64,000 bases of DNA from Luteibacter sp. Sphag1AF (GTDB taxonomy: Bacteria > Pseudomonadota > Gammaproteobacteria > Xanthomonadales > Rhodanobacteraceae): assembly GCF_014192715.1 (NCBI RefSeq), contig NZ_JACHYH010000009.1, positions 62,001 to 126,000 on the forward strand, read 5' to 3'. Each line of letters begins with the position of its first letter. The stretch's first letter is position 1. The notes under the pieces were generated by a model. It did no database searches, was not told the DNA's origin, and worked only from the letters and a program-made list of their open reading frames with translations. This document shows positions 37,473 to 55,558 of this stretch, in pieces. The translations under genes were made by a program, and so were the position numbers.

Positions 37473-38882
37473 TCAGGGCGCGCATGCACAGTCGACCAGC
37501 TCCGGCGGCGGTGTCGGGCAGAGGATGAGCGCCGCATCCGGTCGCGCGAAGGCGCGCTTCAGCACCGGGGCGCCGCATGCGTAGCCTTCGCCTGTGCAAC
37601 CATTTTTCGGAAGCGCCATGCAGGCATCTGCCTCGCTGAAGTCAGCCAGCCACGAGGTGAGCTGGGCCGAGACGTATTTCATCTTCCCGCCGACCATCAC
37701 GAAGTGGACGTTGGTGCTCCGCGACTCGATCACTTCAACCGCCATCATTCCCGGATCGGTATCGCCGACGCGGAACGCGGCAAGGTCCGCCTGTGCGCCC
37801 GGTGCGATCACGCCGATCTGGCCGGTCATGCCGAGGGCTGAGGCGGGATGCGACGTCATCATGGCCAGCAGCGACTCGCTGGTCACATCCGCGTCGTCCA
37901 TCCGCAGGGCGCGGGCAAAGCGCGCTTCATCCAGCAGCGTGGTCGACCCGCTGGGCATCCAGTCTGTGCCGAGGCTGATCGACACGCCCTTGCTTTGCAG
38001 AAGCCCGATGGGCGCGGTGGCGTTGTACAGATCCATGTTGCTGCGCGGCGACCAGAGCATGGCGGTGTGCGTCCTGGCCATGCGAGCGGCAAGTTCGTCG
38101 TCCACTGCCACCGCGTGCACGAGGGTCAGGGGCTCCGTCTGTGCATAGGTTTCCCTGCTTTCCAGAAGGCAGGCAAGCTCTCGCCGACTGGCCGCATCCG
38201 TGCCCTCGCCCGCATGCACCAGCGTGGGATGCGACGAGGACAGGATGCGATGTTGCGTGCAGTCTTCAGGCGGCAGCTTCGTGCCGCGCCCGAACGGAAA
38301 CGTGATGTTCTTCACCGGCGCGAACCAGCCCGCATCCGGATTGCGGGTCAACCCTTTCGCACCGCCACGGCCGGCAAGCGTCGTGGTGCCCGATGCCAGA
38401 TGGCGCAGCTCTACCAGTGCAATGGGCGGCTTTCTGCCGGTGCGGTTGACCAGGTCGCCGGGCCACAGCGACGGATCAGCCTGCCAGTCGCGATGGGATG
38501 CCATGGTGTTCGCAGGACGCTTCAGCGGCTCGCCGGTGCTGTAATTGAGATGTTCGTGCAGGTTGATGAGCCCTGGCGTGACCACCTCGCCGGGGCAATC
38601 CATCTGCGTGGTGTCGGCGTCGGGAGCCACGGCATCGCATCCCACGCTTTCGATCCTGCCATCGGCACCGATCTGCACCGTGCCGCCCAGCAGAAGCTTT
38701 TCGCCGGCCAGGATGTTGGAGCGAATGGCCAGCCGCCCGTTGGCCGCCTTTGCCGTGACGTTGCACACCTTGTGCGGGTCCACATAGCCCGACACGCAGG
38801 TCACCACGTCGGCAGCGGACGCCGCCATGGATATGCCAGCCAGCAGCGCGCCGGCGATGCACAAAACCATCTTTCCGTTCAT
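37473..38882 (-). CDS. Exported amidohydrolase-superfamily enzyme, last gene of the lipid cluster
   Basis: A 469-residue precursor with a Sec signal (MVLCIAGALLAGISMAASAA). Metal ligands of the TIM-barrel hydrolases are visible: NLHEHLN (His109, His111), SHPTLVHAGEGTD, LTLVHAVAVDD and LGTDWMPSGS (Asp). A Cys-rich tail (GCTGEGYACG to LVDCACAP) suggests disulphides. The ATG overlaps the stop of the flippase-like gene as ATGA, so it belongs to the operon. It could trim or inactivate the exported product in the periplasm. Substrate unknown. Confidence 0.8.
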   Translation of the reverse strand: MNGKMVLCIAGALLAGISMAASAADVVTCVSGYVDPHKVCNVTAKAANGRLAIRSNILAGEKLLLGGTVQIGADGRIESVGCDAVAPDADTTQMDCPGEVVTPGLINLHEHLNYSTGEPLKRPANTMASHRDWQADPSLWPGDLVNRTGRKPPIALVELRHLASGTTTLAGRGGAKGLTRNPDAGWFAPVKNITFPFGRGTKLPPEDCTQHRILSSSHPTLVHAGEGTDAASRRELACLLESRETYAQTEPLTLVHAVAVDDELAARMARTHTAMLWSPRSNMDLYNATAPIGLLQSKGVSISLGTDWMPSGSTTLLDEARFARALRMDDADVTSESLLAMMTSHPASALGMTGQIGVIAPGAQADLAAFRVGDTDPGMMAVEVIESRSTNVHFVMVGGKMKYVSAQLTSWLADFSEADACMALPKNGCTGEGYACGAPVLKRAFARPDAALILCPTPPPELVDCACAP

Positions 38883-39934
38883 GCGCTTTTTTCCTGAGGG
38901 GTGGCCGATGCAACGCGCGCGGCCCGGTCGTCGCGGAGTGCTTCGCGCACGTCCGACAGGCCCGCCTGACCACCCACGAAAGCAATCAGCGATGCCGAGG
39001 CAACAACAAGGAAGTTGAGCAGGCACAGCAGCGAGAAACCGGTGGCCTGCGTTTCAGACAGGCCAAGCGCGGTGAGCGCCGAGGCCACGGCGACTTCGCG
39101 GGTGCCGATACCGCCGATGGACAGCGGCAACGAGGCGACGATAGTCGCCATCGTCACAATCGCGTAGGTCACCAGCGGATTGATGTCTGTGGACACGGCG
39201 CGGCAGAACACATAGGTCTGCGCCACGATCAGCGCCTGCGACGCCACCGAGATCACAAATGCCTTGAACATCGTGCGCCGGCTGATAAGCGCCACCACCT
39301 GATGGTCAGCCGCCGTGCCAGCCGCCAGGCGGCCCAGTCGCGCGAGCGTCTTCGCCGCCAGCTTTTCCACGCGCAGCTGAAACCAGCGCGGCCAGACCAG
39401 CAATGCCACCGACGCCAGCGCCAGTACGGCGAATGCGACGCGCACGCCAATCACCACATAGCCATGATTGCCGGAGCCCACCGTGGCGCCGAACGCGGCG
39501 GCTACCACCAACGTGGGCACCACATCGAATATGCGATCGAACACCACGGAGGTAGCTGACGAAGGAAGCGAGGAGGCGTGTTCGCGCGCCAGCCAGATGC
39601 GGACCAGCTCCCCCACGCGTCCCGGACTGACGATGCCAAGAAAGAACGCGGCACCGTAGGTACGCAGCAGCTCGCCCGTCGGAAGCGGGCGGCCCACGTC
39701 GGCCATGATGACGTTCCAGCGGACGGCACGGATGCCCATCACCGCCAGGCCCAGCACGACGCCCACGCCCGCATACGCCGGATGCAGTCCGGCAATGTCG
39801 CGGTCAATGTGCGAGAACACACGGGACTTGACGCACAGCCACGAGAAAAGGCCAAGACCCACCAGCAGGCGCAGCCAGCTGGATCGCAGCAGCGGCGCCA
39901 GCCGCCGTCGCGAAAGCACGTTATCCATGAGCAT
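38879..39934 (-). CDS. LPG-synthase-TM/flippase-like membrane protein (UPF0104)
   Basis: A 351-residue inner-membrane protein with about eight helices and the family patterns LLRTYGAAFFLGIVSPGRVG and ASLPLSIGGIGTREVAVAS. The family covers the flippase half of MprF and many stand-alone proteins thought to move lipids across the inner membrane. ATG 39934 has GGAAGG upstream and overlaps the end of the PAP2 gene by 14 bases; its own stop overlaps the amidohydrolase start. In this operon it is the best candidate for exporting a lipid-like product. Confidence 0.85.
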   Translation of the reverse strand: MLMDNVLSRRRLAPLLRSSWLRLLVGLGLFSWLCVKSRVFSHIDRDIAGLHPAYAGVGVVLGLAVMGIRAVRWNVIMADVGRPLPTGELLRTYGAAFFLGIVSPGRVGELVRIWLAREHASSLPSSATSVVFDRIFDVVPTLVVAAAFGATVGSGNHGYVVIGVRVAFAVLALASVALLVWPRWFQLRVEKLAAKTLARLGRLAAGTAADHQVVALISRRTMFKAFVISVASQALIVAQTYVFCRAVSTDINPLVTYAIVTMATIVASLPLSIGGIGTREVAVASALTALGLSETQATGFSLLCLLNFLVVASASLIAFVGGQAGLSDVREALRDDRAARVASATPQEKSA

Positions 39935-40652
39935 GGGCCTTCCGGCGCGCGTCGCCGAGCATCGCCACCGGCACATAACCGCAGATCAAGCCGACGTAGA
40001 TACCCGCCACCACATCACCCACGAAATGCGTATTCGTCATGACGAAGAAAAGCAGCGAAATGACGGAGAACACGATCAAAGGCAAGCGCCACCGGGGATA
40101 CATCGCCATCAACGGAATCACCACGGCCAGCAGCGCCACGGTGGAACCGGAAGGAAATGCGCTGTATTGCTTGTCCGCGCCCTGGAAGGCATTGAACGTG
40201 TGGATGCCATCGTTGATGAAGCCGTGGCTGGCGATGCAGTCGTAGGCGCGACTTTGCGGCGCTCCTACGTTCATCACCTCGCGCGGCCAGGTGCGGCCGA
40301 ACGCGAGCTTCAGCACCGACTTGACCTCCAGCGCCACCAGCAGCGACAGGCTGACCACAAACCACTCCGACTCGCCGCGTGAGGCAGGACGCGAACTGCG
40401 ACGCAGCACGTAAACGATGGCGTAGATCATCGCCACCGGAGTCAGCACGATGGGCACGTCCAGGAAGCTGCGCATCCACAGATGCGTGTCCAGGCCGTGC
40501 AGGTGAATCCAGACCGCCAGCGGCCGATCCACCCACAGGATGCATGCCAGAGAAAGCGGCACGGTGATAAGAAGGCCCCAGACCATGATCCGGAACACGT
40601 TCCGCCAGGCAAGGTGATCCGTCGGCCCTGCGGTTGCCGTTGAATAATTCAT
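39921..40652 (-). CDS. PAP2-superfamily membrane phosphatase
   Basis: A 243-residue membrane protein with six helices. PAP2 motifs are seen as LKLAFGRTWPRE (motif 1), FPSGST (motif 2) and MTNTHFVGD with His209 and Asp213 (motif 3). Motif 2 reads PSGS where PSGH is usual, so the first catalytic His is missing and activity may be altered. ATG 40652 has AGGAAGG at good spacing. Usual substrates are phosphatidate, lysophosphatidate or polyprenyl diphosphate. Confidence 0.82.
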   Translation of the reverse strand: MNYSTATAGPTDHLAWRNVFRIMVWGLLITVPLSLACILWVDRPLAVWIHLHGLDTHLWMRSFLDVPIVLTPVAMIYAIVYVLRRSSRPASRGESEWFVVSLSLLVALEVKSVLKLAFGRTWPREVMNVGAPQSRAYDCIASHGFINDGIHTFNAFQGADKQYSAFPSGSTVALLAVVIPLMAMYPRWRLPLIVFSVISLLFFVMTNTHFVGDVVAGIYVGLICGYVPVAMLGDARRKAHAHG

Positions 40653-40664
40653 GTGCATCCTTCC

Positions 40665-41744
40665 TCAGCCGATGTGGCCCGGCGCCGTTGACTCTTCAGC
40701 GACGACGTCAACCGCCCGCGCCCTCCCGACCTTTTCACCATTCAGGAAGCGCGCGGCGAACTCTTTCCGGTGGTCGTGATACTTGGAAACGATGCCCACG
40801 CCCTTCAGCAGTCGGATCATCTGGAACGGGATATCGACCTGGCCACGCATGAACGCCGTATTGGCCGATGCGCGGAACGCGTGGTGGTTGTTGTGCCACT
40901 CGCCGGCCAGGTAGCCGTAGAAGCGCTGATTCAGCGCGAGCGTGCGGCGATCCATATCCCAGCCATCTACCTGCTTCGGCTTCTCCGGCGTACCGTGCCC
41001 GCGGAAGTTGAAATCCCGCACGATGGCATGCCAGCAGAACTGCACGGCAAACCATGCCATCAACGTCGGCATGCCGCCCATGGCGTAGAACACACCCGCC
41101 CAGAACACCGTGGCAAAGGCCCAGCGGCCGAGGTAATGCGGAATGGACTCCACGCAGGCCCAGCGCTGGAACGACTCATAAGACGAAAACGGCATGCCCA
41201 CGTGGGCCAGCCGCGCTTTCACGTGCTCGTACTGCGCCGGGGTAATGTCCGTGTCGATCTCGAAGTACGACGCCGCGTAATTTCCCAGCCAGCTCAGCTG
41301 CGGGCCATTCGGGTCTTCGTCTTCATCCGCCTTGGTGTGATGCACGTGATGCACCAGCGCATAGACTTCTTCGCGGTAACCCAGCGGATTGAACCAGAGG
41401 CACAGTTTGGGAATGATCGGATGGGAAAACTGGAACGCCCGATGACTGCAATAACGGTGATACCAGATCGTGTTGGCCACGTTGGCCAGCACCGAGAAGA
41501 TCACGAAATACAGCACCATCGTCGACACGCTGACGTAGTACGCGAAGAAGATGATGGTCGGAATCACCATCAGGAAATGACTGAACTCGAACGCCGCGTG
41601 CAGCGTGCGGCGGCGATCCGCCAGGAAGTTCAGTGACTGGCCGTACTGGCGCAGCGCCTCCCTTACCGTGACCCGCTTGCGCTTCCCTTCGGCATCGCGC
41701 AGGGAATAAGCCCTCGGCAGCAACCTCAAACTTTGATCGTTCAC
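40665..41744 (-). CDS. Membrane acyl-CoA/acyl-lipid desaturase
   Basis: A 359-residue membrane di-iron desaturase. The three histidine boxes are HRYCSH (96-101), HHVHH (132-136) and HNNHH near 282, as in delta-9 acyl-CoA desaturases. Four transmembrane helices are predicted by eye around residues 50-90 and 200-235. It is one of three di-iron membrane enzymes of the operon and lies between the PAP2 and the GNAT-like genes. Confidence 0.88.
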   Translation of the reverse strand: MNDQSLRLLPRAYSLRDAEGKRKRVTVREALRQYGQSLNFLADRRRTLHAAFEFSHFLMVIPTIIFFAYYVSVSTMVLYFVIFSVLANVANTIWYHRYCSHRAFQFSHPIIPKLCLWFNPLGYREEVYALVHHVHHTKADEDEDPNGPQLSWLGNYAASYFEIDTDITPAQYEHVKARLAHVGMPFSSYESFQRWACVESIPHYLGRWAFATVFWAGVFYAMGGMPTLMAWFAVQFCWHAIVRDFNFRGHGTPEKPKQVDGWDMDRRTLALNQRFYGYLAGEWHNNHHAFRASANTAFMRGQVDIPFQMIRLLKGVGIVSKYHDHRKEFAARFLNGEKVGRARAVDVVAEESTAPGHIG

Positions 41745-41793
41745 TTAAAAGTCCCCACGTTCAGCCGCCACTGCGGCGTATCCAACAACCAGG

Positions 41794-42753
41794 TCAGGAA
41801 TCGGCCGCGACAGGCGTGCCGCGACGGGTGAATCGGGTCAGCGCATGGATGCGGCTGCGGACATGCGCCGCGAACAACGCTTTCAGGTACATCGCCACCG
41901 ACAGGCGCACCTCACGGTGGGTGAGGCATCCGCAGATCAGCAGCGCGTCGCCCGCTTCCAGGCGGATGTTGTCTTTCCAGAAACGCGCGAGCACCGGCTT
42001 GATGCTTTGCGCCGAGGTGAAGGGGCGCCCATAGATGTGCCCCGGGTAAGCGCTGCGAATCACGGACACATCGCTTTCCCACGTTTTCCCCGGCGACAGG
42101 ACACCCGCCATGAAGGCCGCTACCCGACGGCTGCGATCCTCATCGCGCGCCTTGCGGCGGTCGATGCGCGGATACACGCTGTGCGGAAGGATCGAATAGG
42201 CCAACCGGTACACACTCGGGTTCTGCGTGCGGAATACCACCGACATCGGTTTGCCCGAATACGGAAAGTGCGCGCACAACATCTCGTGCACCAGCATCGA
42301 GCCGATGGTGTGCCGACCCACGGCCATCAGCGGAATCGAACGGATGTTCATGTTGTCGATGTAGACGATGCGCTCGCCCACGCCCTCCACGATGCGGATG
42401 CCGGTGAACCCCACCAGTTCGCGATCCAGGAATACGGCCCACAGGTCGTTCAGCGTCTTGAAGTAATCCGGCTTGCCCAGCCAGTGAAACGAGGTATCCG
42501 CCTGGTACAACGCGTCGGTCTCGCGCGCGAAGCCTTCCAGCACGGCACGCTGAGCTGCCGCGTCCAGCCGGGTGTCCGGCCGGCTCACGCGAAATACGTC
42601 GAACCGTCCGCGACGCTTCTTGGCGCCCGCAGCCTTGTGGAAAATGTCGTACAGCACCGCACTCGCTCCTTCGATGGATGTCTTGATCCGTTTCTTCAGG
42701 CCAAACGCCACCCCCGGGCCTGTTCCCGGACACATTGACGTCGTCTCTCGCAT
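41794..42753 (-). CDS. GNAT-fold-like protein, possible N- or O-acyltransferase
   Basis: A protein of about 319 residues. The middle resembles a GNAT fold: VFLDRELVGFTGIRIVEG, then YIDNMNIRSIPLM followed by AVGRHTIGSMLVHEML in the place of the acyl-CoA loop (145-151), and RTQNPSVYRLAYSIL as motif B. The C-terminal third has a Cys pair (ICGCLTHRE). It has no signal peptide. The start is uncertain (42753 used; 42735 also possible). It lies 41 bases after plsB. By context it may transfer an acyl chain to an amine or hydroxyl; this is inference. Confidence 0.6.
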   Translation of the reverse strand: MRETTSMCPGTGPGVAFGLKKRIKTSIEGASAVLYDIFHKAAGAKKRRGRFDVFRVSRPDTRLDAAAQRAVLEGFARETDALYQADTSFHWLGKPDYFKTLNDLWAVFLDRELVGFTGIRIVEGVGERIVYIDNMNIRSIPLMAVGRHTIGSMLVHEMLCAHFPYSGKPMSVVFRTQNPSVYRLAYSILPHSVYPRIDRRKARDEDRSRRVAAFMAGVLSPGKTWESDVSVIRSAYPGHIYGRPFTSAQSIKPVLARFWKDNIRLEAGDALLICGCLTHREVRLSVAMYLKALFAAHVRSRIHALTRFTRRGTPVAADS

Positions 42754-42794
42754 GAACTTTTTGCGCCAGCCCCCGCTGGCTCCCCTGCTTCTCT

Positions 42795-45314
42795 TTACGT
42801 AGCCTTGCCTGCTTCCGGCACGATGCGCTCGATGGCATGGCGCAGCTCGCGGCCCAGAAGTTCGCGCGCATCGCGCGCCCATAGCGCCAGCGTGTCATCG
42901 AACACGAGGCATCCCGCATCGTTCAGGCGCACCAGACCGGAATCGCGCAGTTTGTGGATGAAGACGCGGAATAGTGATTTGTCGAAGAATTCCGGCGCGG
43001 CCTTTGCATGCAGCAGGCTCAGGCGCTGCGCGGCGTAATGGCAGATGGTTTCCAGCTGGCCGGTAGACAGCGTGCCGCTGCCGTTCTTCACCAGCACGGC
43101 CATCGTGATGTAGTAGCGCTCCAGCGCCTGGCGCAGCGGTTGACCCACACCGCGCAGCAAGGCCGCCCCGTCGGAATCACCCGAAAGCGTTTCGACCACT
43201 TCCTGCCCCGGCTCGCCGGTGACGACCAGCAGGCCCTCGCGCAACAGCAACGCATGCGCCGAATCCATCTGCGCCATGAAGCCCGCCTCGTCCCACGGCA
43301 GGAACAGCTCGGCTTTGACGAAAGCGTAGATATGCCGCGCGATGGTCCGGATGCGCGACAGCGGCATGCGCTGGGTCTGCATCAGGCAGTTGGCGATCAC
43401 GCCCGCCGCCACGAACAGATGGAGACTGTTGTTCCGGTACCACGACAGCAGAACCGCGTCGGCCTCGCGAATGCGCAGGACATCGCCCAACTCATGCTTC
43501 ACCCGTTCCAGCACGCCCAGTTCCAGGCCATAGCCCACCATCTGTTCGGGGGTCATGCCGGTTACGGTGACGCGCTGGTCGTACACCACCTGGCTCAGCA
43601 GCGTTTTCAGCAAGGCCAGATGGGCCAGCAGATCACTTTCGGCCATTGCATGACGCGGCGCAGACAGCAGCGCCGTCGCCAGCAGGTTCACCGGATTCAC
43701 GTCCGCAGCCGCATTGACGTTGATGTTGATGCGCATGGCGAGGTCGTCGATCGCCCTGGTAAGCCATGCCGGTTTCTCGCGTGCGCCCGGTGAGGCTTCG
43801 GCCTCCCACCCTGGCGCACTGGCATCCAGCACATCGGCCAGGTACACGGGCTGGCCGAAGTTGACGACGACCTGGCCGTAACGCGAGCGCAGCACGCCCG
43901 GCAGGCTGGTGATCAGCTTCCAGATGCTCTCGTTTTTCTTCGCCGCCCCAGACAGCTCGTCGATGTAGCTGCCGCCTTCCATGATTTTTTCGTAGCCGAT
44001 ATAGACAGGCTGGAACATCACGGGGCGCGACCGTTCACGCAGGAAAGCGCGCACCGTCATGGACAGCGTGCCCGCTTTGGGCTGTTGCAGCCGGCCCGTG
44101 CGCGAGCGGCCGCCTTCAATGAAGTATTCGATGGAATAGCCACGGCTGATGAGCTGGGCCATGTATTCGGAGAACACGGCCGAGTACAGCGGACTGCCCT
44201 TGATGTTGCGGCGCAGATAGAAGGCACCGCACTTGCGCAGCACACGTCCCACGAGCGGCAGATTGAGGTTCACGCCGGCCGCGATGTGTGGCGGCACGAT
44301 GGAGTGCGTGTACAGAATGTAGGACAGCAGCAGATAGTCCATGTGGCTGCGATGGCTGGGCACATAGATCACCTCGTAGCCCCTGGAGGCATCCTTGAAC
44401 GCATCGAGGTTGCGCACGGAAATGCCGCGGTACAGCCGGTTCCACACCGGCTTGAGGATGAAGCTGAGGGAGCGGACAGCGGGATGGGAATAGTCCGCTG
44501 CAATTTCCAGTGCGAATGAAAGTGCCTGCTTCGTGGCGCGATCGGCCGTCATGCTGGAACGACGGGCGTGATCGGCGATGGCGTCACGCACGGAAGGCGA
44601 TGCCATCAACTGATCAATGACCACGCGACGCGTGGACAGGTCCGGCCCGACCACGGCCGTTCGGGTGCCACGGAAATGCGAGCGCAGCGTACGGGCCAGC
44701 TTGCGCACCGTACGTTCGGGCGCCTGCCCCTCGTCCACCAGCGTGCGCAGCGACACCGGTACAGCGAAGCGCACATGGGTGTCGCGGCCGTTCAGAAGCA
44801 GTGCCATCAGGCGGCGCATGCGCCCGCCCAGGCCCCACGTTTCGGCGAACAGCACCGAGAACCAGCCTTTGCTGCGGGTGGGCGCGCGACCCACAAACAT
44901 GGACACGGGAATCAACTCGACATCCAGCGAGGGATCGCGGCGGTGCGCCTGAACCAGTGCGATCAACTCGACCGGATAGGCACGCCTGCGCTGTCCCCGG
45001 TTGTGCAGCGCGAATGCAGCACGGTGGCCGGCCCCAGCCTGCTCGTCCAGTGGCATCGGCAGGAATGCTGGCGGCAATCCGGCTTCGCGCGCCGCCTCAT
45101 CCAGGATCAGCAGATTGGACAGGCCGTCCTGCTCAAACACGTAACAGACCGCACGCTTACTGTCCTCAGGCACACGGCACAGGATGTCGATTTTCAGCCA
45201 CGGCGCCACCAGAGCGCCCAGGAGGCGCGCCCACAGGGGTTTCTCCCCTGGCGTCGCGGATGCGTGACGGGAGCGGAGAAAGGACGGCGATGTATCGGAC
45301 AGCGGCTTGGACAT
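42795..45314 (-). CDS. plsB: Glycerol-3-phosphate acyltransferase, PlsB type
   Basis: An 839-residue membrane-bound acyltransferase. Block I is HRSHMD (321-326), block II GAFYLRRN, block III FIEGGRSRTG and block IV VFQPVYIGYEKI-like, all in order. It normally puts the first acyl group on sn-glycerol 3-phosphate from acyl-ACP or acyl-CoA. The length equals that of the housekeeping enzyme, so it could be the only plsB of the genome, but its place inside a lipid-modifying operon suggests a dedicated copy. AAGG precedes ATG 45314. Confidence 0.92.
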   Translation of the reverse strand: MSKPLSDTSPSFLRSRHASATPGEKPLWARLLGALVAPWLKIDILCRVPEDSKRAVCYVFEQDGLSNLLILDEAAREAGLPPAFLPMPLDEQAGAGHRAAFALHNRGQRRRAYPVELIALVQAHRRDPSLDVELIPVSMFVGRAPTRSKGWFSVLFAETWGLGGRMRRLMALLLNGRDTHVRFAVPVSLRTLVDEGQAPERTVRKLARTLRSHFRGTRTAVVGPDLSTRRVVIDQLMASPSVRDAIADHARRSSMTADRATKQALSFALEIAADYSHPAVRSLSFILKPVWNRLYRGISVRNLDAFKDASRGYEVIYVPSHRSHMDYLLLSYILYTHSIVPPHIAAGVNLNLPLVGRVLRKCGAFYLRRNIKGSPLYSAVFSEYMAQLISRGYSIEYFIEGGRSRTGRLQQPKAGTLSMTVRAFLRERSRPVMFQPVYIGYEKIMEGGSYIDELSGAAKKNESIWKLITSLPGVLRSRYGQVVVNFGQPVYLADVLDASAPGWEAEASPGAREKPAWLTRAIDDLAMRININVNAAADVNPVNLLATALLSAPRHAMAESDLLAHLALLKTLLSQVVYDQRVTVTGMTPEQMVGYGLELGVLERVKHELGDVLRIREADAVLLSWYRNNSLHLFVAAGVIANCLMQTQRMPLSRIRTIARHIYAFVKAELFLPWDEAGFMAQMDSAHALLLREGLLVVTGEPGQEVVETLSGDSDGAALLRGVGQPLRQALERYYITMAVLVKNGSGTLSTGQLETICHYAAQRLSLLHAKAAPEFFDKSLFRVFIHKLRDSGLVRLNDAGCLVFDDTLALWARDARELLGRELRHAIERIVPEAGKAT

Positions 45315-45368
45315 GAGACCTTGAAGCGTCAGGTGGAACCGATAAGACAAATGCAGAGCGATCCGGCG

Positions 45369-47199: not shown

Positions 47200-47245
47200 C
47201 CCTGCATCCCCCTATGAAATGTTGTCCTGCTGATAGATGGGCTCA

Positions 47246-47971
47246 TCATGCGTTGACGTCCTTGCCGGCGAGCATGGCCGCGACCTGATGCTCGCGGTCG
47301 CCCCCGAAGCCCACTTCGAAATCCGCGCGATCCGGATTGCAGAACGTGCCAAACATCACATCCCACACCGGAAAGCCATAGTTCTGCGCGTGGTGCCCCA
47401 GCTTGTGATGAACCCGGTGCATTTCCGGCCGCTGCACCACCAGCCCCAGCCAGCGGGGCGAACGGATGTTGCAGTGCGCGTAATAGTTGTTCACGCCATA
47501 AACGAAAACCGACCACGCGATCCCTTCCGCATTCAGGCCCAGCAGCACGATGGCCGCGAAGCTGTTGAACAGGGTGTACACGATGTAGTCGAGCGGGTGC
47601 GTGTAGTCGGTCGCAAGAATGTCGATCCGGCTCGGGCTGTGGTGCAGCTGATGGAACGTGCGCCACAGGAAGTCGCTGGCGTGCTCGGCACGGTGCCAGC
47701 CGTACTGGAAAAAGCTGGAAAGAATGGCCGCCGCCATGCCACCCAGGATCGGCGGCCAGCTCTCACCGATGGAGAACAGCGCGTACTGGCCAAGCCACGG
47801 GTTGAGCCACAGGGCAAACAGGAGCATCAGCCCCAGTTGCACCATGTTCATCACCAGCGCCCGGATGAACCAGCGGCGATTGAAGGGCAACGACTGGTCC
47901 GGGAACACGCGTTCCAGAATGAACAGCAGAACGAAAACAACAGCCAGCGAGGCGTAGATGGCAGCAATCAT
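47246..47971 (-). CDS. Sterol-desaturase/fatty-acid hydroxylase-family enzyme
   Basis: A 241-residue integral membrane di-iron protein. Histidine clusters are HRAEH (93-97), HQLHH (107-111), HRVHH (185-189) and HH at 193-194, matching the FA_hydroxylase family. It would hydroxylate or desaturate an acyl chain or isoprenoid. Its ATG overlaps the stop of the desaturase at 47968 as ATGA, so the two membrane oxidases are made together. Confidence 0.88.
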   Translation of the reverse strand: MIAAIYASLAVVFVLLFILERVFPDQSLPFNRRWFIRALVMNMVQLGLMLLFALWLNPWLGQYALFSIGESWPPILGGMAAAILSSFFQYGWHRAEHASDFLWRTFHQLHHSPSRIDILATDYTHPLDYIVYTLFNSFAAIVLLGLNAEGIAWSVFVYGVNNYYAHCNIRSPRWLGLVVQRPEMHRVHHKLGHHAQNYGFPVWDVMFGTFCNPDRADFEVGFGGDREHQVAAMLAGKDVNA

Positions 47972-48894: not shown

Positions 48895-48935
48895 CGTCTG
48901 ATTCCTTTCTTTTTCATGGTGGTTCCGGGGTGCCT

Positions 48936-50012
48936 TCACGCCAGCGCCTCCTCGCGGGACACGCTGTCCGCAATGAAGCGCACGATGCGCAGTGAGATGT
49001 CGCGTGCGTGGGTCAGGATGCTGTCGTGGCCGTAATCGGAGTCGATCACCGCGAACTGCGCCCCCGGCGTCATGTCGGCCGTGCCACGCACTTCGTCCAC
49101 AGGGAAAAGCAGGTCGTCCTGAAGCGCGACGAAGAGCACCCGCGTTCTTACCGCCGCCAGCGCGTTGCGGATGGACCCGCGACCGCGACCGACGTTGTGA
49201 CTGTCCATCGCTTTGGTCAGCGTCCAGTACGCGCACGCGGAAAAGCGCCGGGTGAACTTGTTGCCGATGTGCCTCTGGTAGCTGCTGGCCCGGTAGCCGT
49301 CGCATACCTCGTCGTTTGCTTCGGCCTGGGTGGTGTTGTAAACCCGCTGGCTGCGGTAGGACATCACCGCCAGCGAACGGGCAGCAGCAAGCCCGCGCTG
49401 GCCTGCCCCTTCGTTACCCGAGCCGAACGTGCTGTCGCTTTCCATCGCCATGCGCTGGGTTTCGTTCAGCGCGACCGCCCAGGGCGACTGCCTCGCGCCG
49501 GCCCCGATGACGCAGGCATAAGCGAACAGATCCGGCGCACGGCACATCCATTCCATCAGCTGCTGACCACCGTAGGAACCGCCGATGCCCAGGTGGATGG
49601 CCTCGATGCGAAGATGCGCCCGGACCTGCTCGTGCAGTGCCACCACATCTTTCAGCGTGATGAGCGGGAAATCGGTGTGGTACGGGGAATCCGTGGCCGG
49701 GTTGATGCTGTCCGGGCCGGTCGAGCCGTAGCACGAGCCCAGCGAATTGACGCAGACGATGAAGTGTTCGTCAGCATTGATCGCCTTGCCGGGGCCAACG
49801 AATTCGGGCCACCAGTCCATGGGCTGCGCGTTGCAGGTCAATGGATGAAGAATCCAGACGACGTTGTCGCCCGATGGCGACATCTGTCCATAAGTTGAAT
49901 AAGTAAGCACCACATCGTGCAGCACGCCGCCCCGTTCGCAATGAAAGGTGCCCGGCACATGCAGGGTGTGCACGCACGGTTCGGCGGTTACCACGGCCAT
50001 CACGGCGCTCAC
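48936..50012 (-). CDS. MetX-like alpha/beta hydrolase or O-acyltransferase
   Basis: A 358-residue protein of the homoserine O-acetyltransferase-like family. TYSTYGQMSPSGDNVVWI and WWPEFVGPGKAINADEHFIV are typical. The nucleophile is Ser146 in GIGGSYGGQQ (GGSYGG in place of GGSMGG), Asp is in LQDDLLFPVDE and His in SDYGHDSIL. The GTG at 50012 overlaps the NmrA stop as GTGA and has GGAG at good spacing; ATG 50000 is the alternative. Without other Met genes near it, an acyl transfer to the pathway product is more likely than methionine synthesis. Confidence 0.75.
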   Translation of the reverse strand: MSAVMAVVTAEPCVHTLHVPGTFHCERGGVLHDVVLTYSTYGQMSPSGDNVVWILHPLTCNAQPMDWWPEFVGPGKAINADEHFIVCVNSLGSCYGSTGPDSINPATDSPYHTDFPLITLKDVVALHEQVRAHLRIEAIHLGIGGSYGGQQLMEWMCRAPDLFAYACVIGAGARQSPWAVALNETQRMAMESDSTFGSGNEGAGQRGLAAARSLAVMSYRSQRVYNTTQAEANDEVCDGYRASSYQRHIGNKFTRRFSACAYWTLTKAMDSHNVGRGRGSIRNALAAVRTRVLFVALQDDLLFPVDEVRGTADMTPGAQFAVIDSDYGHDSILTHARDISLRIVRFIADSVSREEALA

Positions 50013-51037
50013 GTGGAAGTCTCCGTTGCAACACCTGCCTGCGGCGCCAAAAGGCGAAACTTTCGCGCCAGATACGTGCGCGCGTCCGTCAGCGCGACGC
50101 CGTAGCTGATGGCAGAGAACCGCTTGTCCACCTCGGTGTCGCACTGTCCCAGAATCCACAGGATGGACATCTGATTGGCCAACGCCTCGGAGAACGGACG
50201 CGTCAACCACACAGCCAGCCGGAGCACTGGCACGGGAATGGCAAACACGCGGATCGGCCGCTGGTACCGCTCGGCAAACAGGCTGCCCACGTCGTGCCAC
50301 GACAAGGCGCGCGGGCCGGTCACATCCAGGGTGTGGCTTTCTCCGTCGTCCCGCCCCATGGCTGCGATGGCGAAGGCAGCCACGTCGCTCAGTGCCACAA
50401 AGGCGTGGCGACGCGCAGCGCTGCCCGGCACCAGAGCAAAGCTCCAGCGATCAATCGACTCACCCAGCATGCGACGCATCCAGCGCGTCATCCCGCGCGA
50501 GCGATCCAGCGTGGCGGCCTTTTCGCCCAACAGCGGCACACGACTGCCGATAAGCGCGAAGTAGTCGTCCATGAAAGGCGCGCAGCGCAGCACGGTATGC
50601 GGCACGCCAGAGGACGCAAGCAGACCCTCCACGTGCGCCTTCATCCGGTACGTGGCCGACAGATCGACATAACGGGATTCAAAGGGAACGCACAGCGACA
50701 CAAACACGATGCGGCGGACGCCAGCGGCCTTGCAGGCGTCGATCAGGTTCCGATAGCCCTGCCCCTCGTCCTGCGCAAAACTGTACTTGCCCTTCGGAAA
50801 CACCACGGTCGCCGTGGCGATCACTACGTCAACGCCAGCGCAGGCGCGCGCCAGGCTCGGCGCATCGCGAAGATCACCCACGTACTGCGCCACCGCATCA
50901 CCAAAAAGCCGTTTGGCCTGCGCATGCGGACGCACCAGCGCCCGAACCGCATGCGTACCCGCCGAAGCCAGCGATTCCACCAGCAGCGAACCTAGCTGCC
51001 CGGTGGCGCCGACCACAAGGACGGTAGCCGGATTCAC
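50009..51037 (-). CDS. NmrA/atypical-SDR NAD(P)-binding protein
   Basis: A 342-residue protein with an N-terminal Rossmann fold (GATGQLG, residues 10-16; RALVRPH gives Arg for the NADP phosphate; VIATATVVFP). No YxxxK is obvious, as in NmrA-like and isoflavone-reductase-like members. The C-terminal 100 residues contain a hydrophobic stretch (VFAIPVPVLRLAVWL) that may lie on the membrane. ATGA overlap with the E1-nitroreductase gene upstream and GTGA overlap with the MetX-like gene downstream. Probably a reductase of the pathway. Confidence 0.8.
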   Translation of the reverse strand: MNPATVLVVGATGQLGSLLVESLASAGTHAVRALVRPHAQAKRLFGDAVAQYVGDLRDAPSLARACAGVDVVIATATVVFPKGKYSFAQDEGQGYRNLIDACKAAGVRRIVFVSLCVPFESRYVDLSATYRMKAHVEGLLASSGVPHTVLRCAPFMDDYFALIGSRVPLLGEKAATLDRSRGMTRWMRRMLGESIDRWSFALVPGSAARRHAFVALSDVAAFAIAAMGRDDGESHTLDVTGPRALSWHDVGSLFAERYQRPIRVFAIPVPVLRLAVWLTRPFSEALANQMSILWILGQCDTEVDKRFSAISYGVALTDARTYLARKFRLLAPQAGVATETST

Positions 51038-53013
51038 GCCAGCACCTCGTCAGCAACGTTGTGCGCCTGCGTGGCGACGGCGTGGAAGTCCGGCGCAATG
51101 GCACAGAACGACGCGATGCTCCGACGCGGCGAGCGCGAAGCATTCAACACCTTCGCCCGGCCCACGCGCAACAGCACCACGGGACGCTCGCCGGACGTCA
51201 GCCCGAACATCGCGGCGACCGCGTCGCGTCCTTGCGGTGTGCTGATCGGGAAATCAATCGGCTGGCAGACCAGGTGCTCTGCGGTCAGCTCCAGCCACGT
51301 GCGCATGATGGCGCGGCCTACGTCGATGCGGCCCCGTGCCGTGAAGTCAGACGTCGCGATCAGGGCAAAGCTCGACGGCGAGCGAATGGTCGCCGTGGCG
51401 TTCTTCGCCATCGCGCGAGCCAGGCCCAGCGGCGACAACGCCCGACGCAGCGGAGCCAGCCTGCGCAGCAATGCCATGGCAAATGTTTCGGCGCGACCGA
51501 GGCCAAGCCCGTCGGGTGTGAACCCGGTGGGGTCGGCGTCAACCTCTTTGCGACTGAGCCGCATGAAGTCGAACAGTTCGTCCATGTACGCGCGGCTCCG
51601 GAACAGATCCAGCGCACCACGATGGCCCATGCGATACAGCGTGGCGTTGGACTGCTTCATCACCACCGCGCGCGAACGGAACGGTGCGACGAGCCGGTCG
51701 CAGCGACGCCCCACCTCATCGGCCACCGGCACATCAATGAAGCGATGGCGGTTGGACGTGCGACTCTCCAGCAGGCCGCGGGCACGCACATAACCGTCCG
51801 CTTTCAATCCATGGACGGTCAGCACGCCTGCGACATAGTCCGGCGCCAGAATGTCTTCCTGCTCCGAATGGCGAAACCCGATATCCGCCACGGATGCAGC
51901 CGCTTCGATGGCACAGCCAAGGCCATAGGCAATGGCGAAGCCTTCCGGGTCCACGGCTGGCAGCGCGCGGGAGCGGTCCCAGCCAATCTGGATCTCGCGA
52001 TCATTAAGCACCGTGAAGTGCCACGGCTGACAATTGTGCGGCGACGGCGCGAGCACCATCGCCTCAATCACGCTGCGCAGCACCGGATGGGCTGCAAGCA
52101 CGGCATCCACCGGGCTTACCTGAGCAACGGCCGGTGTGGCGGACGGACCTTTCTTCGCAGCAACCAGCGCATCTACAAGGCGCAGGGGTACTTTCGCGAC
52201 CTGGGCAATACGGGCGAAGCGCCCGCGCATCTTCATGTGCGTGTCGAAAGCCACGATGTGCGGCACCCGCCGGCACATCAGCAATTCCAGCACGCACCGC
52301 GTACCCAGTGCGCCCATGGCCAGCACGCAGTAGGACACCTGCGGCCACGGCTGCTTCGTCACCATGCGATCGGAGATGACCGGCAGGAAGTCGGCGGGAA
52401 AGTGGGTATAGCCGAGCCAGGTAAGGCATTCGGACAGGCGGCCTTCGCGGTGCGCTTCTTCCGATGCGCGGCCGTAGAATGGCCGGGTTTTCTTCCGGCG
52501 ATAGTCGAAGACGTAAAGCACCGCCTTGCCACCGAAGTCGAAGCCGGAGATCACCGGAATGCGGCGTTCGGCTGCGAGCTGGTGGACGCGATACTTCACC
52601 CACGGCGAAGACGCCGCGTCGATGGCATCGAAGATCACGCTCACACCGGTCAGCGAGGCTTCGAGATTGGCCTCGGTGAGGCCTTCGTCGTAGACCGTCG
52701 TGTCCAGATACGGATTGATGGCGTGCAGCCGCTCATCGAGCACGCGTGCCTTCGAGCGACCCACATCGGCCAGCACGCATGCCTGGCGGTTGATGTTGTG
52801 CAGGTCAAAGGACTCCGGATCGGCCAGCACCAGCGAGCCGATGCCCATGCGCACCAGAGGCTCCGCCAGGCTGGCACCCACGCTTCCGCAACCCGCGACA
52901 AGCAGGCGGCCACCGCGCAGCGCCGACTGCTCCTGCGCGCTGACGACGTCGACGTTGCGCATGACAAACTCGTCAAGACGCTCCGGACCCGGCACGGACG
53001 TGGTCAGGCCCAT
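51034..53013 (-). CDS. E1-like (ThiF) adenylyltransferase fused to a nitroreductase, Rv1355c-like
   Basis: A 659-residue two-domain protein. Residues 30-290 form a ThiF/MoeB-type domain: ATP loop GCGSVG (41-46), ADPESFDLHNINRQ (61-77 with the Asp and Asn-Arg pair), K88 in GRSKARVLDERL and DAIDA (129-133). No MoeB-type zinc CxxC pairs are seen. Residues 300-659 form an Acg-like FMN nitroreductase domain with SPHNCQPWHF (324-333) and SFALIATSD. Its ATG lies 10 bases inside the end of the oxygenase gene. It may activate a carboxylate as adenylate and reduce or oxidise it. The combination recalls Mycobacterium Rv1355c, whose role is unknown. Confidence 0.82.
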   Translation of the reverse strand: MGLTTSVPGPERLDEFVMRNVDVVSAQEQSALRGGRLLVAGCGSVGASLAEPLVRMGIGSLVLADPESFDLHNINRQACVLADVGRSKARVLDERLHAINPYLDTTVYDEGLTEANLEASLTGVSVIFDAIDAASSPWVKYRVHQLAAERRIPVISGFDFGGKAVLYVFDYRRKKTRPFYGRASEEAHREGRLSECLTWLGYTHFPADFLPVISDRMVTKQPWPQVSYCVLAMGALGTRCVLELLMCRRVPHIVAFDTHMKMRGRFARIAQVAKVPLRLVDALVAAKKGPSATPAVAQVSPVDAVLAAHPVLRSVIEAMVLAPSPHNCQPWHFTVLNDREIQIGWDRSRALPAVDPEGFAIAYGLGCAIEAAASVADIGFRHSEQEDILAPDYVAGVLTVHGLKADGYVRARGLLESRTSNRHRFIDVPVADEVGRRCDRLVAPFRSRAVVMKQSNATLYRMGHRGALDLFRSRAYMDELFDFMRLSRKEVDADPTGFTPDGLGLGRAETFAMALLRRLAPLRRALSPLGLARAMAKNATATIRSPSSFALIATSDFTARGRIDVGRAIMRTWLELTAEHLVCQPIDFPISTPQGRDAVAAMFGLTSGERPVVLLRVGRAKVLNASRSPRRSIASFCAIAPDFHAVATQAHNVADEVLA

Positions 53014-53810
53014 GCGAGCACCTTTCGCGCCGTGCCCGAGAAGCCGATGAAGCCATTGATGTTCAGGCGAACATCGTCGTCTCCACGGCTGCCATGAAAC
53101 ACGGCGTGCACTTTGGAGGCCGCGAACAGCAGCGTATCGCCGGCTTCCGGGTGAATGTCGATGTAGTCGACATCGTGAAGTTCGTTCAGATGAATGGGAT
53201 AGCCGCCGGCAAGGATGCCGCGCTCTTCGAGCCAGCCCGGCGACGGCACGAAATCGTACAGACGTACCCTGCTCGATCCGTTGGCCGGATGGCGCGGATA
53301 GAAATTGACGGCAACCGGATGCTCCACGTCGCTGTATTCCATGCCCGAGTGACGCACCTGCGGCCAGTCGGTATGCGCCTTGAGCACCAGCTGCTCCTCG
53401 CACTCATCGGTCCAGATCGTGGCGCGGTGCGTGGGCGCGGGTACACCGTCGATATACGCGTGACGGAAACGGAAGCCGGCTTCCTCCACGCAGTCGAACA
53501 ACTGGCGGTAGAGGTTGGGTGCGCCTTGAAAGAGCAATTCCGCGAAACCGTTGTTCTTCTGGTAGTCGTCGTGAATGTCCGATGCGCTTTTCAGGAAGGC
53601 ATTGGTGCCCACCATGCGTCCGGCCACACCGTCGCTGCGTTCGTACAGACCCTTGCTGGCCTGGAAGTTGCGGTACACGCGGTCGCACAGCTCGTCGTTA
53701 AGCGAGCGCTTGACCAGAACGGCCGTTGTCCGGCCGGCAAGCAAACCTTCCATGTGCTCGCTGAGCGCGTTCAGCTCGGTTTCGATCAGTGCGTGATTCG
53801 GACTTCTCAT
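53004..53810 (-). CDS. 2-oxoglutarate/Fe(II)-dependent oxygenase
   Basis: A 268-residue jelly-roll oxygenase. The iron triad is H146-x-D148 in KAHTDWP with a distal His at 235 or 239 (KVHAVFHGSRG) and R248 for 2-oxoglutarate in DDVRLNINGF. No signal peptide. It is followed by the E1-nitroreductase gene with overlap and preceded by a hydrolase gene at a 9-base gap. It would hydroxylate, desaturate or halogen-free modify a small substrate of the pathway. Confidence 0.82.
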   Translation of the reverse strand: MRSPNHALIETELNALSEHMEGLLAGRTTAVLVKRSLNDELCDRVYRNFQASKGLYERSDGVAGRMVGTNAFLKSASDIHDDYQKNNGFAELLFQGAPNLYRQLFDCVEEAGFRFRHAYIDGVPAPTHRATIWTDECEEQLVLKAHTDWPQVRHSGMEYSDVEHPVAVNFYPRHPANGSSRVRLYDFVPSPGWLEERGILAGGYPIHLNELHDVDYIDIHPEAGDTLLFAASKVHAVFHGSRGDDDVRLNINGFIGFSGTARKVLAWA

Positions 53811-53819
53811 TGCGGCCTT

Positions 53820-54782
53820 TCAGGTCGATGACGTCAGGGTGGTGTGGCTGGAAAGAACAGAACGCGGAACCTGCAAAAACTGATAGACGCGACGGGCTGC
53901 GCGACGAGGGCGCTCAAGCATCGGCATGTGCCCCACCCCATCCCAGATCTCCACATCAGCGTGTGGTACGGCCTGATGCCAGGCAGATGCCGCTTCAACG
54001 CCGATGATCCGGTCCTCGCGCCCCCAGACGATGAGGACACGCGAAGGCAGTGCGCTTGCATGGGGAGTCAACCGTTCGCTGGCTGCGTAATCGCCGTACA
54101 TGCCGGCAATGCGATCGCGCTGCTGCTGGTACTGCGTGGCCATGTGCTCACGCACCCAGCCAGGCACATACGGGGGACGGGACATGATGTCGGCATAGAA
54201 GCGATTGAAATCGCGGCGCGAGGAAATCAGGAACGGGTTTTCCCCGCTATCGGCGAGTTTTTCGAGGCGACTGACCGGGGCCGATGCCAGGCCGTCGGGA
54301 TCGAAAAGCACCAGTGATTCCACGCGCGCGGGATGATGCATGGCGAGCCAGGTCGCCACGAATCCGCCCATCGAATTGCCGATGAGATGGGCGCGTTCGA
54401 TACCGAGTGCATCAAGCAGCGAAAGGATGCGGCGGGCCTGCGCCTCCACGCCATATCCCTGGTGCGTGCTGAACGCCGTATCGCCATGCCCCGGAAGGTC
54501 GGGGATAAGCACGCGGTAGTCCATGGCGAAGCGCCTGGCGAAACGCGCCCAGACATGCTTGTGGCCAGTGAATCCGTGAATCATCACCAGCGTGGCACGA
54601 CCGCGCCGACAACTGTCGTACACACTGAGCATTGCGTCGCCCGTACGCACGGTGCGACGGTGCAGACCGAACAGGAACGCTTCCACGCGCATGCCAGCGG
54701 CGTTGAGCCAGCGGCCCGCCACGGCGCGTCGGCTCTCGACGCGCATCTTCTTTTTCATGCGGGAAACGTTCACGTCAGACAT
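53820..54782 (-). CDS. Alpha/beta-hydrolase-fold enzyme
   Basis: A 320-residue hydrolase: oxyanion region MIHGFTGHKHVW, nucleophile elbow GNSMGGFVA, Asp in WGREDRIIG and His in VGHMPML. The first 30 residues are basic (KKKMRVESRRA) and may hold the protein to the membrane. The ATG overlaps the stop of the kinase-like gene as TGATG. It could be a thioesterase or lipase releasing the acyl chain. Confidence 0.85.
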   Translation of the reverse strand: MSDVNVSRMKKKMRVESRRAVAGRWLNAAGMRVEAFLFGLHRRTVRTGDAMLSVYDSCRRGRATLVMIHGFTGHKHVWARFARRFAMDYRVLIPDLPGHGDTAFSTHQGYGVEAQARRILSLLDALGIERAHLIGNSMGGFVATWLAMHHPARVESLVLFDPDGLASAPVSRLEKLADSGENPFLISSRRDFNRFYADIMSRPPYVPGWVREHMATQYQQQRDRIAGMYGDYAASERLTPHASALPSRVLIVWGREDRIIGVEAASAWHQAVPHADVEIWDGVGHMPMLERPRRAARRVYQFLQVPRSVLSSHTTLTSST

Positions 54783-55558
54783 CAGAGAAACAGCATCAGC
54801 GCCAGCAGAGCCATCGGTGAAACAAGCACGAGGATCATGTTGTCCAGACCGCGCGGCGACAGTGCTTCCAATGCCGTGGCGATGGCGCCATAAGCGAGCG
54901 ACACAGCGACCAGGGCGGGAGACATGCCACGTTGCACGCCCAGAAGCACCATCGCGACAGCCGCGGAAAATACGAAGACGGTGAGGCAGCCTGCTACGGA
55001 TTTCGTGTTACTGCCGCCCCATACCCGATCCGTGACCTGGAAGCGGTTTCCCTTTCCGAGCAGGAAGCCGGCAGGTTCTGCCAGGCCGTCACCCAGCGCC
55101 ACTGCGAAGAACGCAACTTTCACTGCCGTCATCGGATACACCAGCACCGCGCCGGCCAACGCCACGTTGAACGAAATCATCGGCAGCAGGAAGAACAGGC
55201 GTGCACGCGGCGCATCGCTGTCGCGAAGACTGTGGGCCGCAAACGCATGAATCATGGGTCGTTCGCTGTTCGCCGCGAAGACGTACATCGTCACCTGAAT
55301 AAGGCTGGCGGCAAGCACGGACGGCAAAAGCTGCGCATCAGGAAGCACTGCCAGAATGGGCGCCGTGACCACCATGATGCCGATATGGTTGATCTTGCGT
55401 GTGTAGTCACGCGTCCACGCATGGCGGAACTTCAGATACGTGCAGATCCGACCAATGGCCAGCGGCCCGACCACCAGATAAAGCGCGACGCGCAGCCACT
55501 GGATGTTGTCCATCAACGACGGCGTCAATTGCATGATTGCGTTGCTCTCACGTTTCAT
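54782..55558 (-). CDS. Polyprenol/phytol-kinase-like membrane protein, first gene of the lipid cluster
   Basis: A protein of about 258 residues with seven helices. The segment GDGLAEPAGFLLGKGNRFQV, then VWGGSNTKSVAGCLTVF matches the CTP-dependent dolichol/phytol kinase family (Sec59, Vte5, Dgk1) and, less closely, CDP-diacylglycerol synthases. It would phosphorylate a long-chain alcohol or diacylglycerol. The start is not certain (ATG 55558 or 55534). It is the first gene of the co-directional run; the promoter must lie in 55559-55800. Confidence 0.75.
   Translation of the reverse strand: MKRESNAIMQLTPSLMDNIQWLRVALYLVVGPLAIGRICTYLKFRHAWTRDYTRKINHIGIMVVTAPILAVLPDAQLLPSVLAASLIQVTMYVFAANSERPMIHAFAAHSLRDSDAPRARLFFLLPMISFNVALAGAVLVYPMTAVKVAFFAVALGDGLAEPAGFLLGKGNRFQVTDRVWGGSNTKSVAGCLTVFVFSAAVAMVLLGVQRGMSPALVAVSLAYGAIATALEALSPRGLDNMILVLVSPMALLALMLFL

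Follow-up and report, generated by a model that had tools for sequence, protein, structure and literature searches.

A conserved gene block in Luteibacter sp. Sphag1AF that may direct the synthesis of an oxidized N-acyl amino-acid lipid

Described oxazolone pathways and a related locus in Luteibacter

Oxazolone lipids have become known only recently. In the TrzAS system (Rv1356c-Rv1355c), which is described as making tryptazolone, the protein TrzS (Rv1355c) converts N-acyl tryptophan to an oxazolone by ATP-dependent cyclization and O2-dependent desaturation (PMC12856293). The same chemistry is ascribed to TyzB and TyzC as separate proteins and to OxzB as a fusion (PMC12856293, PMC10404671). 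Here we describe a block of genes in Luteibacter sp. Sphag1AF that centers on a fused ThiF-flavin oxidase gene. The OxzAB system of Pseudoalteromonas rubra and the TyzACB system (Rv2336-Rv2338c), as well as the stieleriacine, thalassotalic acid, and kyonggic acid clusters (PMC10404671, PMC12479983), share with this block a presumed core of N-acyl amino-acid synthase, ThiF protein, and nitroreductase, but as far as their gene content is set out in the accounts used here, none of them is described with PlsB, a 2-oxoglutarate oxygenase, a MetX-like protein, desaturases, HAD and PAP2 phosphatases, or a flippase.

The window, that is, the whole 64,000-nucleotide stretch that was analyzed, covers bases 62001-126000 of contig 9 (NZ_JACHYH010000009.1) of the 4.18-Mb genome, and coordinates below are positions in the window. 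Seventeen genes, all on the minus strand, run from 55558 down to 37473, as the initial annotation had reported from the sequence. Eight of the 16 junctions overlap (by 1, 10, 4, 4, 4, 4, 14, and 4 bases with the chosen starts) and the other eight are gaps of 9, 41, 46, 44, 54, 41, 49, and 6 bases; these sizes depend on the start codons chosen, and alternative starts would change them. The count of eight overlaps with otherwise short gaps, which had also been noted, thus stands, with gaps of 6 to 54 bases. The block was seen correctly as a unit, but an 18th gene at its downstream end (36330-37370, minus strand) had been left out.

We propose that this operon makes an oxidized, membrane-associated N-acyl amino-acid lipid, probably cyclized, with oxazolone-type chemistry, and we give this reading a probability of about 0.42. 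That the product is an amino-acid lipid of some kind, either the one proposed or the ester-linked form considered below, is probable. An N-acyl amino acid is preferred to a plain glycerolipid because gene 4 has an oxazolone-type counterpart and because gene 13 is GNAT-like. The earlier expectation of a lipid-like product with oxidized acyl chains is supported. The further claim that the gene set was undescribed agrees with our search of the open-access literature, in which no description of such a cluster was found; the subscription literature lay mostly outside that search, so this is not proof. The presumed chemical core, on the other hand, does have a described counterpart, which the initial annotation had missed: the fusion protein corresponds to the characterized ThiF cyclase-flavin oxidases that turn N-acyl amino acids into oxazolones. 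For the surrounding gene set none was found.

The ThiF-flavin oxidase fusion and the GNAT-like protein

Gene 4 (51034..53013, minus strand) encodes a ThiF-type (E1-like) cyclase fused to an Acg/FDO-type nitroreductase, an architecture like that of TrzS and OxzB. It is one of the core genes, by which we mean those found in all three loci (the window, a genome of the same genus designated G015, and a genome from another family of the order designated G1028); the remaining genes are present in two of the three, the window and G015. The ThiF domain was matched by PF00899 at 107 bits, over its cut-off, and the flavin domain by PF00881 at 42 bits, over the cut-off of 23.5. In the published description of TrzAS the ThiF cyclase is likewise followed by the flavin oxidase in one chain, and an acyltransferase gene lies alongside, a part that is here presumed to fall to gene 13 (PMC12856293). 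Residues G41, D65, N73, N75, R76, K88, and D132 of gene 4 are common to all four comparison proteins, and D65, R76, K88, D132, and N327 are also kept in G1028. The conserved ATP-site Asp is taken, by sequence comparison, to correspond to D217 of TrzS, and an N-x-QPW motif of the flavin domain (N327-x-QPW in gene 4) occurs in all six aligned proteins. When the gene 4 profile was compared with solved structures, four of the five best hits were TcdA entries (among the best 60 of 71 matches), and the Acg structure 2ymv gave a weak match (E of 3.7e-5). TcdA cyclizes a threonine-derived group on tRNA.

A plasmid-encoded homologue from Nitratidesulfovibrio vulgaris, WP_011176612.1, links this domain pair to a substrate. 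It is 27% identical to gene 4 and has the same ThiF-nitroreductase order, with a FeeM N-acyl amino-acid synthase fused in front, which ties the ThiF-nitroreductase pair to N-acyl amino acids. It differs from the operon in lying beside an XrtA/PEP-CTERM cluster, and the 31 kb examined around it held none of the other operon genes; a scan of the 18 operon proteins and of flanking proteins that represent part of the open reading frames of the window showed no exosortase or exopolysaccharide (EPS) genes. On the plasmid of N. vulgaris RCH1, the FeeM-ThiF-nitroreductase chain comprises 989 aa (L010:14053-17022) and adjoins a polysaccharide cluster of the XrtA/PEP-CTERM type; this fusion is possibly a one-chain oxazolone synthase in an exosortase setting.

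Gene 13 (41794..42753, minus strand) is also a core gene and is the only GNAT-like gene seen in the operon. Its central block, comprising GERIVYIDNMN, HTIGSMLVHE, and PMSVVFRTQNPSVYRLAY, is invariant in the three loci. From the operon context, we infer that it encodes an N-acyltransferase, and an amino acid is its proposed acceptor. No FeeM-type synthase scored over the cut-off in the window genome or in G015, and the operon differs from TrzAS in having no recognizable FeeM-type homologue, a comparison made with FeeM and not with TrzA. The lack of a sequence match to FeeM is not decisive, because TyzA is reported to be linked to FeeM by structure (PMC10404671).

Several observations weigh against the proposed reading. 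Gene 4 falls under the cut-off of the Acg family (NF047509, 142 bits versus 199) and under that of the Rv1355c family (134 bits versus 476). Gene 13 had no significant match in Pfam, NCBIfam, or the PDB, nor to any GNAT family; its best BLASTP value against the FeeM-ThiF-nitroreductase protein was an E of 0.41, hhalign gave a probability of 0.2% against a FeeM alignment built from 20 of the 21 loci found (L036 was left out) plus the plasmid fusion protein, and a single-sequence structure model was unusable (pLDDT of 36). At the position inferred to match Arg540 of TrzS, the three operon proteins all have Leu, whereas the three plasmid homologues have Arg; this position was located from the published numbering by way of an offset of 15 at D217 and one of 13 at Q651. 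In addition, the lipid-kinase-like gene, the HAD phosphatase, and the MetX-like gene have roles that the known oxazolone pathways, as far as they are described in these sources, do not explain. TrzAS itself is described as two genes, compared with at least 12 core genes here.

Some of these same observations would suit a different use of gene 4, in which it adenylates an N-acyl amino acid and passes it to an alcohol, a glycerolipid or another, to give an ester-linked aminolipid with no oxazolone, while the flavin domain oxidizes something else. The Arg540 position that is not kept would be in line with such a product, and PlsB, the phosphatases, and the lipid-kinase-like protein would suit a lipid-alcohol partner. 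Alcohols are also reported to open oxazolones (PMC12856293), so that an oxazolone could be the activated donor. The precedents in which ThiF and nitroreductase proteins occur together, as they are described, instead yield oxazolones or occur alongside 2,3-dehydro amino acids, and we consider the ester-linked product possible but somewhat unlikely. An extension of the proposed reading, in which genes 13 and 4 make an N-acyl oxazolone that serves as a donor and is opened by a lipid alcohol to give a new class of hybrid lipid, a hydroxylated dehydro-amino-acid glycerolipid, flipped into the envelope, with the operon spreading between families as a block, is more speculative and on balance unlikely. 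The lipid alcohol in that case may come from PlsB and the phosphatases or may be prepared by the lipid-kinase-like gene 1.

The 2-oxoglutarate oxygenase

The core gene 3 (53004..53810, minus strand) encodes an Fe(II)/2-oxoglutarate oxygenase. Its profile matches are weak: HilA at an E of 2.7e-6, far under the cut-off, and WelO5 at 0.005 in the window copy and 4e-5 in the G1028 copy, both under the Pfam cut-off. The ligand residues are nonetheless invariant in the three copies (H146-T-D148, H235, and R248, an HxD...H...R arrangement). The hallmark of WelO5-type halogenases is an HxG motif in place of HxD, and assignment of gene 3 to that type was rejected on the HTD found in all three copies; since HxD is kept, gene 3 should hydroxylate rather than halogenate. 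A relationship to an antiviral protein, raised by a PDB match at an E of 7e-5, was also discarded when that match faded to an E of 0.09 with a three-copy profile.

Relatives of gene 3 occur in four plasmid records at 30-31% identity, all of them rhizobial, and the neighborhoods of three (L014, L015, and L016) were examined. A diaminobutyrate aminotransferase gene lies next to the gene 3 relative in two of the three neighborhoods, overlapping it in L015 and L016, which fits small amino-acid substrates for gene 3. Within 12 kb of the relative, L014 also carries an annotated ATP-grasp protein and L016 carries two biotin-carboxylase-family proteins; perhaps these rhizobial neighborhoods represent an undescribed small amino-acid metabolite cluster.

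A 12-gene core in three genomes and an accessory module in two

All 17 genes recur in G015 without change of order, and their products are 41-77% identical to those of the window. Gene 18, which begins 102 bases downstream of gene 17 in the window, is counted in the block because its counterpart in G015 is 70% identical and occupies the same place, directly downstream of gene 17, making an 18-gene unit in two genomes. Among 13 other flanking proteins compared, none adjoins the operon in G015; one short-chain dehydrogenase/reductase (SDR) matches there only the operon's own SDR. In the third locus, that of G1028 (an assembly with an estimated contamination of 7%), genes 1-11 and 13 occur in the same order, and 8 to 10 of the 12 junctions, counted up to the next gene, overlap, depending on the choice of starts. 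The recurrence of the 18-gene order at an unrelated site and of the 12-gene core in a third genome indicates that the arrangement is more than chance. The core comprises genes for the kinase-like protein, alpha/beta hydrolase, 2-oxoglutarate oxygenase, E1-flavin oxidase, NmrA-like protein, MetX-like protein, desaturase, fatty acid hydroxylase, small membrane protein, HAD phosphatase, SDR, and GNAT-like protein; to this core, PlsB and the export-like genes are added as an accessory module. The initial annotation had allowed that the homologues might prove to be scattered among genomes; they are together in all three genomes in which the fusion gene was found.

The fusion gene was detected in 2 of 61 near relatives, in 2 of the 23 genomes of the genus, and in 2 of 233 from the family. 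Samples of 398 genomes each from the order and the phylum gave 3 and 1, respectively, the phylum having been searched under a stricter limit and its one hit being the window genome itself; these sets overlap, and for the family, order, and phylum only the first three to five candidates per genome were scored. Among 369 genomes sampled from the class, gene 13 was detected in one, again the window genome. Two pattern-based scans of the named genomes, one with the gene 4 protein and one with an alignment, found no relative, although such scans depend on short exact peptides and could overlook some. Genes 13 and 1 had no tblastn match in 72,556 plasmid records at E of 0.1 and 0.01, and comparison of genes 1, 3, 4, and 13 with plasmids returned only distant relatives, of genes 3 and 4.

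No match to genes 14-18 was obtained in the examined part of the G1028 contig (39,000 bases out of 46,801). The G1028 operon, which lies on the minus strand, ends instead in a stand-alone KAS III-like gene (L085:1740-2750, minus strand) that overlaps the end of gene 13 and is missing from the window and G015 copies. Its product matches PF08541/PF08545, and PRK09352 at 224 bits is under the cut-off of 249. The KAS III-like gene may replace the PlsB/export module or may make a different product.

PlsB deserves separate consideration. Gene 12 (42795..45314, minus strand) encodes a complete second glycerol-3-phosphate acyltransferase PlsB (NF003441 at 938 bits, over the cut-off of 610); another PlsB is encoded elsewhere in the genome, and two PlsBs occur in only 2 of the 23 genomes of the genus. 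The initial annotation had inferred that oxidized acyl chains are loaded on glycerol phosphate or another alcohol, decorated, and flipped out; taken as a scheme in which PlsB does the loading, this would involve no amino acid. The complete enzyme would fit that scheme, as would the two desaturases and the hydroxylase. The operon of G1028 is nevertheless without PlsB and still keeps 12 genes, including those for the 2-oxoglutarate oxygenase, E1-flavin oxidase, MetX-like, and GNAT-like proteins; a PlsB gene adjoins it on the opposite strand, a position that is suggestive and may be set to the credit of the scheme. That adjoining PlsB shares 47-50% identity with the 23 housekeeping copies from the window's genus and 45-46% with the two operon PlsBs, and since it is slightly nearer the housekeeping proteins it was not counted as part of the operon. 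It is also not obvious what the E1, MetX-like, and 2-oxoglutarate enzymes would do in the making of a plain glycerolipid. PlsB is thus not supported as the defining entry step, and we regard this scheme as quite unlikely.

Probable horizontal spread of the block

The segment that was probably acquired spans 36299..57195, about 20.9 kb, and comprises genes 1-18 together with an SDR gene at its right end (56323-57210, minus strand) that ends just beyond the segment border and lies about 760 bases upstream of the operon. In the relatives G010, G021, and G015, just 247, 227, and 191 bases, respectively, separate the corresponding flanks, which represents an empty site. The right flank of the block lies at 2.91 Mb in G015, whereas the operon of that genome is at 27-46 kb. 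A further relative, G016, also has the SDR gene next to the same flanking sequence, at the end of its contig.

The three copies are about equally distant from each other in the case of seven core genes out of 12 (2, 4, 5, 6, 8, 9, and 11), with identities across the three pairs of 56%, 55%, and 52% for gene 4, 57%, 59%, and 59% for gene 6, and 57%, 65%, and 60% for gene 11. For genes 1, 3, 7, 10, and 13, identity within the genus exceeds that to the third locus by 7 to 19 points, which tells against the proposal. The housekeeping PlsBs of the 23 genomes of the genus share 85.5-99.5% identity, and in a PlsB tree of 25 rows the two operon PlsBs stand on very long branches outside the 23 housekeeping copies; from this tree only the identities and that outside position were used. 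The divergence of the core genes compared with that of housekeeping PlsB, together with the different chromosomal sites, argues for separate horizontal acquisition, and there is a strong inference that the block moves horizontally as a unit. Purely vertical inheritance was considered and rejected in view of the empty sites, the different sites, and the divergence. With a G+C content of 63.5%, the block differs little from its flanks (61.8% and 62.4%), which points to a donor of similar composition or to a block that is not recent.

Another reading is that the genes do not form one pathway but a gene-rich island in which unrelated operons lie side by side. PlsB, KAS III, and genes 14-18 do vary between loci, which indicates at least two modules. 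The order is nonetheless maintained at 40-77% identity in three unrelated places, and an assembly of unrelated operons is therefore highly improbable.

The promoter of the operon is likely to lie in the interval 55559-56322. A promoter scan found 3 sites, compared with 4.0 in shuffled sequences, an absence of excess that is uninformative. These roughly 760 bases upstream of gene 1 contain no convincing gene; an open reading frame of 104 aa (55995-56309) has no Pfam match.

Other genes of the block

Profile searches of Pfam and NCBIfam clearly backed the earlier labels for 12 of the 17 proteins, namely both alpha/beta hydrolases, the ThiF-nitroreductase fusion, the NmrA-like protein, one FA_desaturase, the FA_hydroxylase, SDR, HAD, PlsB, and PAP2 proteins, the "flippase-like" LPG_synthase_TM protein, and the amidohydrolase. 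The second desaturase was weakly backed, and the oxygenase has the weak profiles and invariant ligands described above. The kinase-like (gene 1) and GNAT-like (gene 13) proteins had no significant profile match and are labeled by motifs typical of those families. As previously noted, no polyketide synthase, nonribosomal peptide synthetase, YcaO, or terpene synthase families were among the Pfam and NCBIfam matches listed for the 17 proteins, the NCBIfam listing covering 25 matches each for three of them, and no ketosynthase, carrier, or condensation domains were among the Pfam matches of these proteins or gene 18. The operon SDR overlaps a KR domain model (39 bits), as is usual for SDRs.

All of these genes are on the minus strand, and genes 1, 2, and 5-11 belong to the core. 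Gene 1 (54782..55558) encodes a membrane protein with the motifs TRK-NH, GDG-AEP, NTKS-AG, and SPRG-DN, invariant in the three copies; it had nothing significant in Pfam, NCBIfam, or the PDB and presumably resembles CTP-dependent lipid-alcohol kinases of the phytol, dolichol, or diacylglycerol kinase type. Gene 2 (53820..54782), the least conserved core gene (40-41%), encodes an alpha/beta hydrolase (PF00561, 117 bits) with its Ser, Asp, and His set in place in the three copies. The product of gene 5 (50009..51037) is an NmrA-like/extended-SDR NAD(P)H-binding oxidoreductase (PF13460, 88 bits; PF05368, 86 bits). Gene 6 (48936..50012) encodes a MetX-like (homoserine O-acetyltransferase-like) acyltransferase that matches TIGR01392 at 297 bits versus a cut-off of 500; the motifs GGS(Y/F)GGQQ, DDLLFP, and GHDS are kept in the three copies, and the MetX-type Ser-Asp-His residues are retained.

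Two di-iron enzymes follow, a membrane desaturase/hydroxylase of the FA_desaturase type encoded by gene 7 (47968..48894; PF00487, 93 bits), with histidine boxes kept in the three copies, and an FA_hydroxylase-superfamily enzyme encoded by gene 8 (47246..47971; PF04116, 92 bits), with its histidine boxes retained. Gene 9 (46795..47199) encodes a small membrane protein of 134 aa that matches no family above threshold (DUF4345 at an E of 0.92) and is conserved at 51-54% across the three loci. Gene 10 (46154..46750) encodes a HAD-IB phosphatase (TIGR01490 at 111 bits, over the cut-off of 98), and gene 11 (45369..46157) encodes the SDR (PF00106, 144 bits), for which the best NCBIfam match is mycolate reductase (167 bits, under the cut-off of 380).

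The ols genes offer a shared idea, that of an N-acylated, hydroxylated, and O-acylated amino-acid lipid. The sole NCBIfam match of gene 8 is OlsE, at 64 bits versus a cut-off of 475, and gene 2 weakly matches OlsI, among others (50 bits versus 385). OlsB is not among the listed matches of the operon proteins, and the lyso-ornithine lipid acyltransferase (OlsA-type) match reached only 17 bits versus 300, on PlsB, so that no ols acyltransferase was recognized.

Five genes present in the window and G015 complete the block. Gene 14 (40665..41744) encodes an acyl-lipid/acyl-CoA-type desaturase that has no Pfam match and scores 54 bits against the DesA family, under the cut-off of 400; three histidine boxes are kept in both copies. 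Gene 15 (39921..40658) encodes a PAP2 phosphatase (PF01569, 42 bits), and gene 16 (38879..39934) encodes the flippase-like LPG_synthase_TM protein (PF03706, 132 bits; TIGR00374, 58 bits). The product of gene 17 (37473..38882) is a metal-dependent amidohydrolase with a signal-like N terminus (PF01979, 72 bits); its motifs HEH, VHAGEGTD, VHA, and GTDW, which we take to be the metal-binding set, are kept in both copies. Gene 18 has a lipobox-like LAGC near its N terminus and probably encodes an exported lipoprotein; the window copy has no Pfam match.

The signal-like amidohydrolase and the lipoprotein, with the two hydrolase-fold proteins, the oxygenases, and an adjoining TonB receptor, could also belong to a catabolic or detoxifying operon that degrades acylated plant or microbial compounds. 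PlsB, the MetX-like and GNAT-like proteins, and the ATP-using E1 enzyme have an anabolic look, however; the TonB receptor keeps the same other neighbor in relatives that lack the block at that place, and the amidohydrolase and lipoprotein have no match in the examined part of the G1028 contig. A degradative role is accordingly very unlikely.

Elsewhere in the window, a YadA-type trimeric autotransporter adhesin of 2466 aa, with 13 stalk stretches, head repeats, and an anchor, is encoded at 21938-29338 (minus strand), and PF00144 (serine beta-lactamase/penicillin-binding) proteins flank the block at 17208-18446 (minus strand) and 60163-61389 (plus strand).

Proposed pathway and significance

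In the proposed synthesis of an oxidized N-acyl amino-acid lipid, the substrates, the order of steps, and the product are inferred from the gene set. Gene 3 would hydroxylate a free amino acid and gene 13 would attach a fatty acyl group to its nitrogen. Gene 4 would then activate the carboxylate with ATP, close an oxazolone ring, and desaturate it (or give a dehydro-amino acid). A hydroxyl could be O-acylated by gene 6, and the acyl chain could be oxidized by genes 7 and 8 (and 14), while genes 5 and 11 would adjust the redox state and genes 1, 10, and 15 would introduce phosphate groups or take them off. In the genus to which the window belongs, the product is probably linked to a glycerolipid and carried to the periplasm or the outer membrane with the help of the accessory module (PlsB, desaturase, PAP2, flippase-like protein, amidohydrolase, and lipoprotein).

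The physiological role of oxazolone lipids is described as a major unresolved question (PMC12856293). The locus provides a defined gene set for testing, consisting of 12 core genes and two alternative accessory modules. It also represents a lipid cluster without a polyketide or nonribosomal peptide synthase signature, and mining based on such signatures may miss clusters of this kind. If the proposed reading is true, this much larger operon, kept at three unrelated places around the same presumed core, would show that what the ThiF-flavin oxidase pair makes can be channeled into elaborate membrane lipids.

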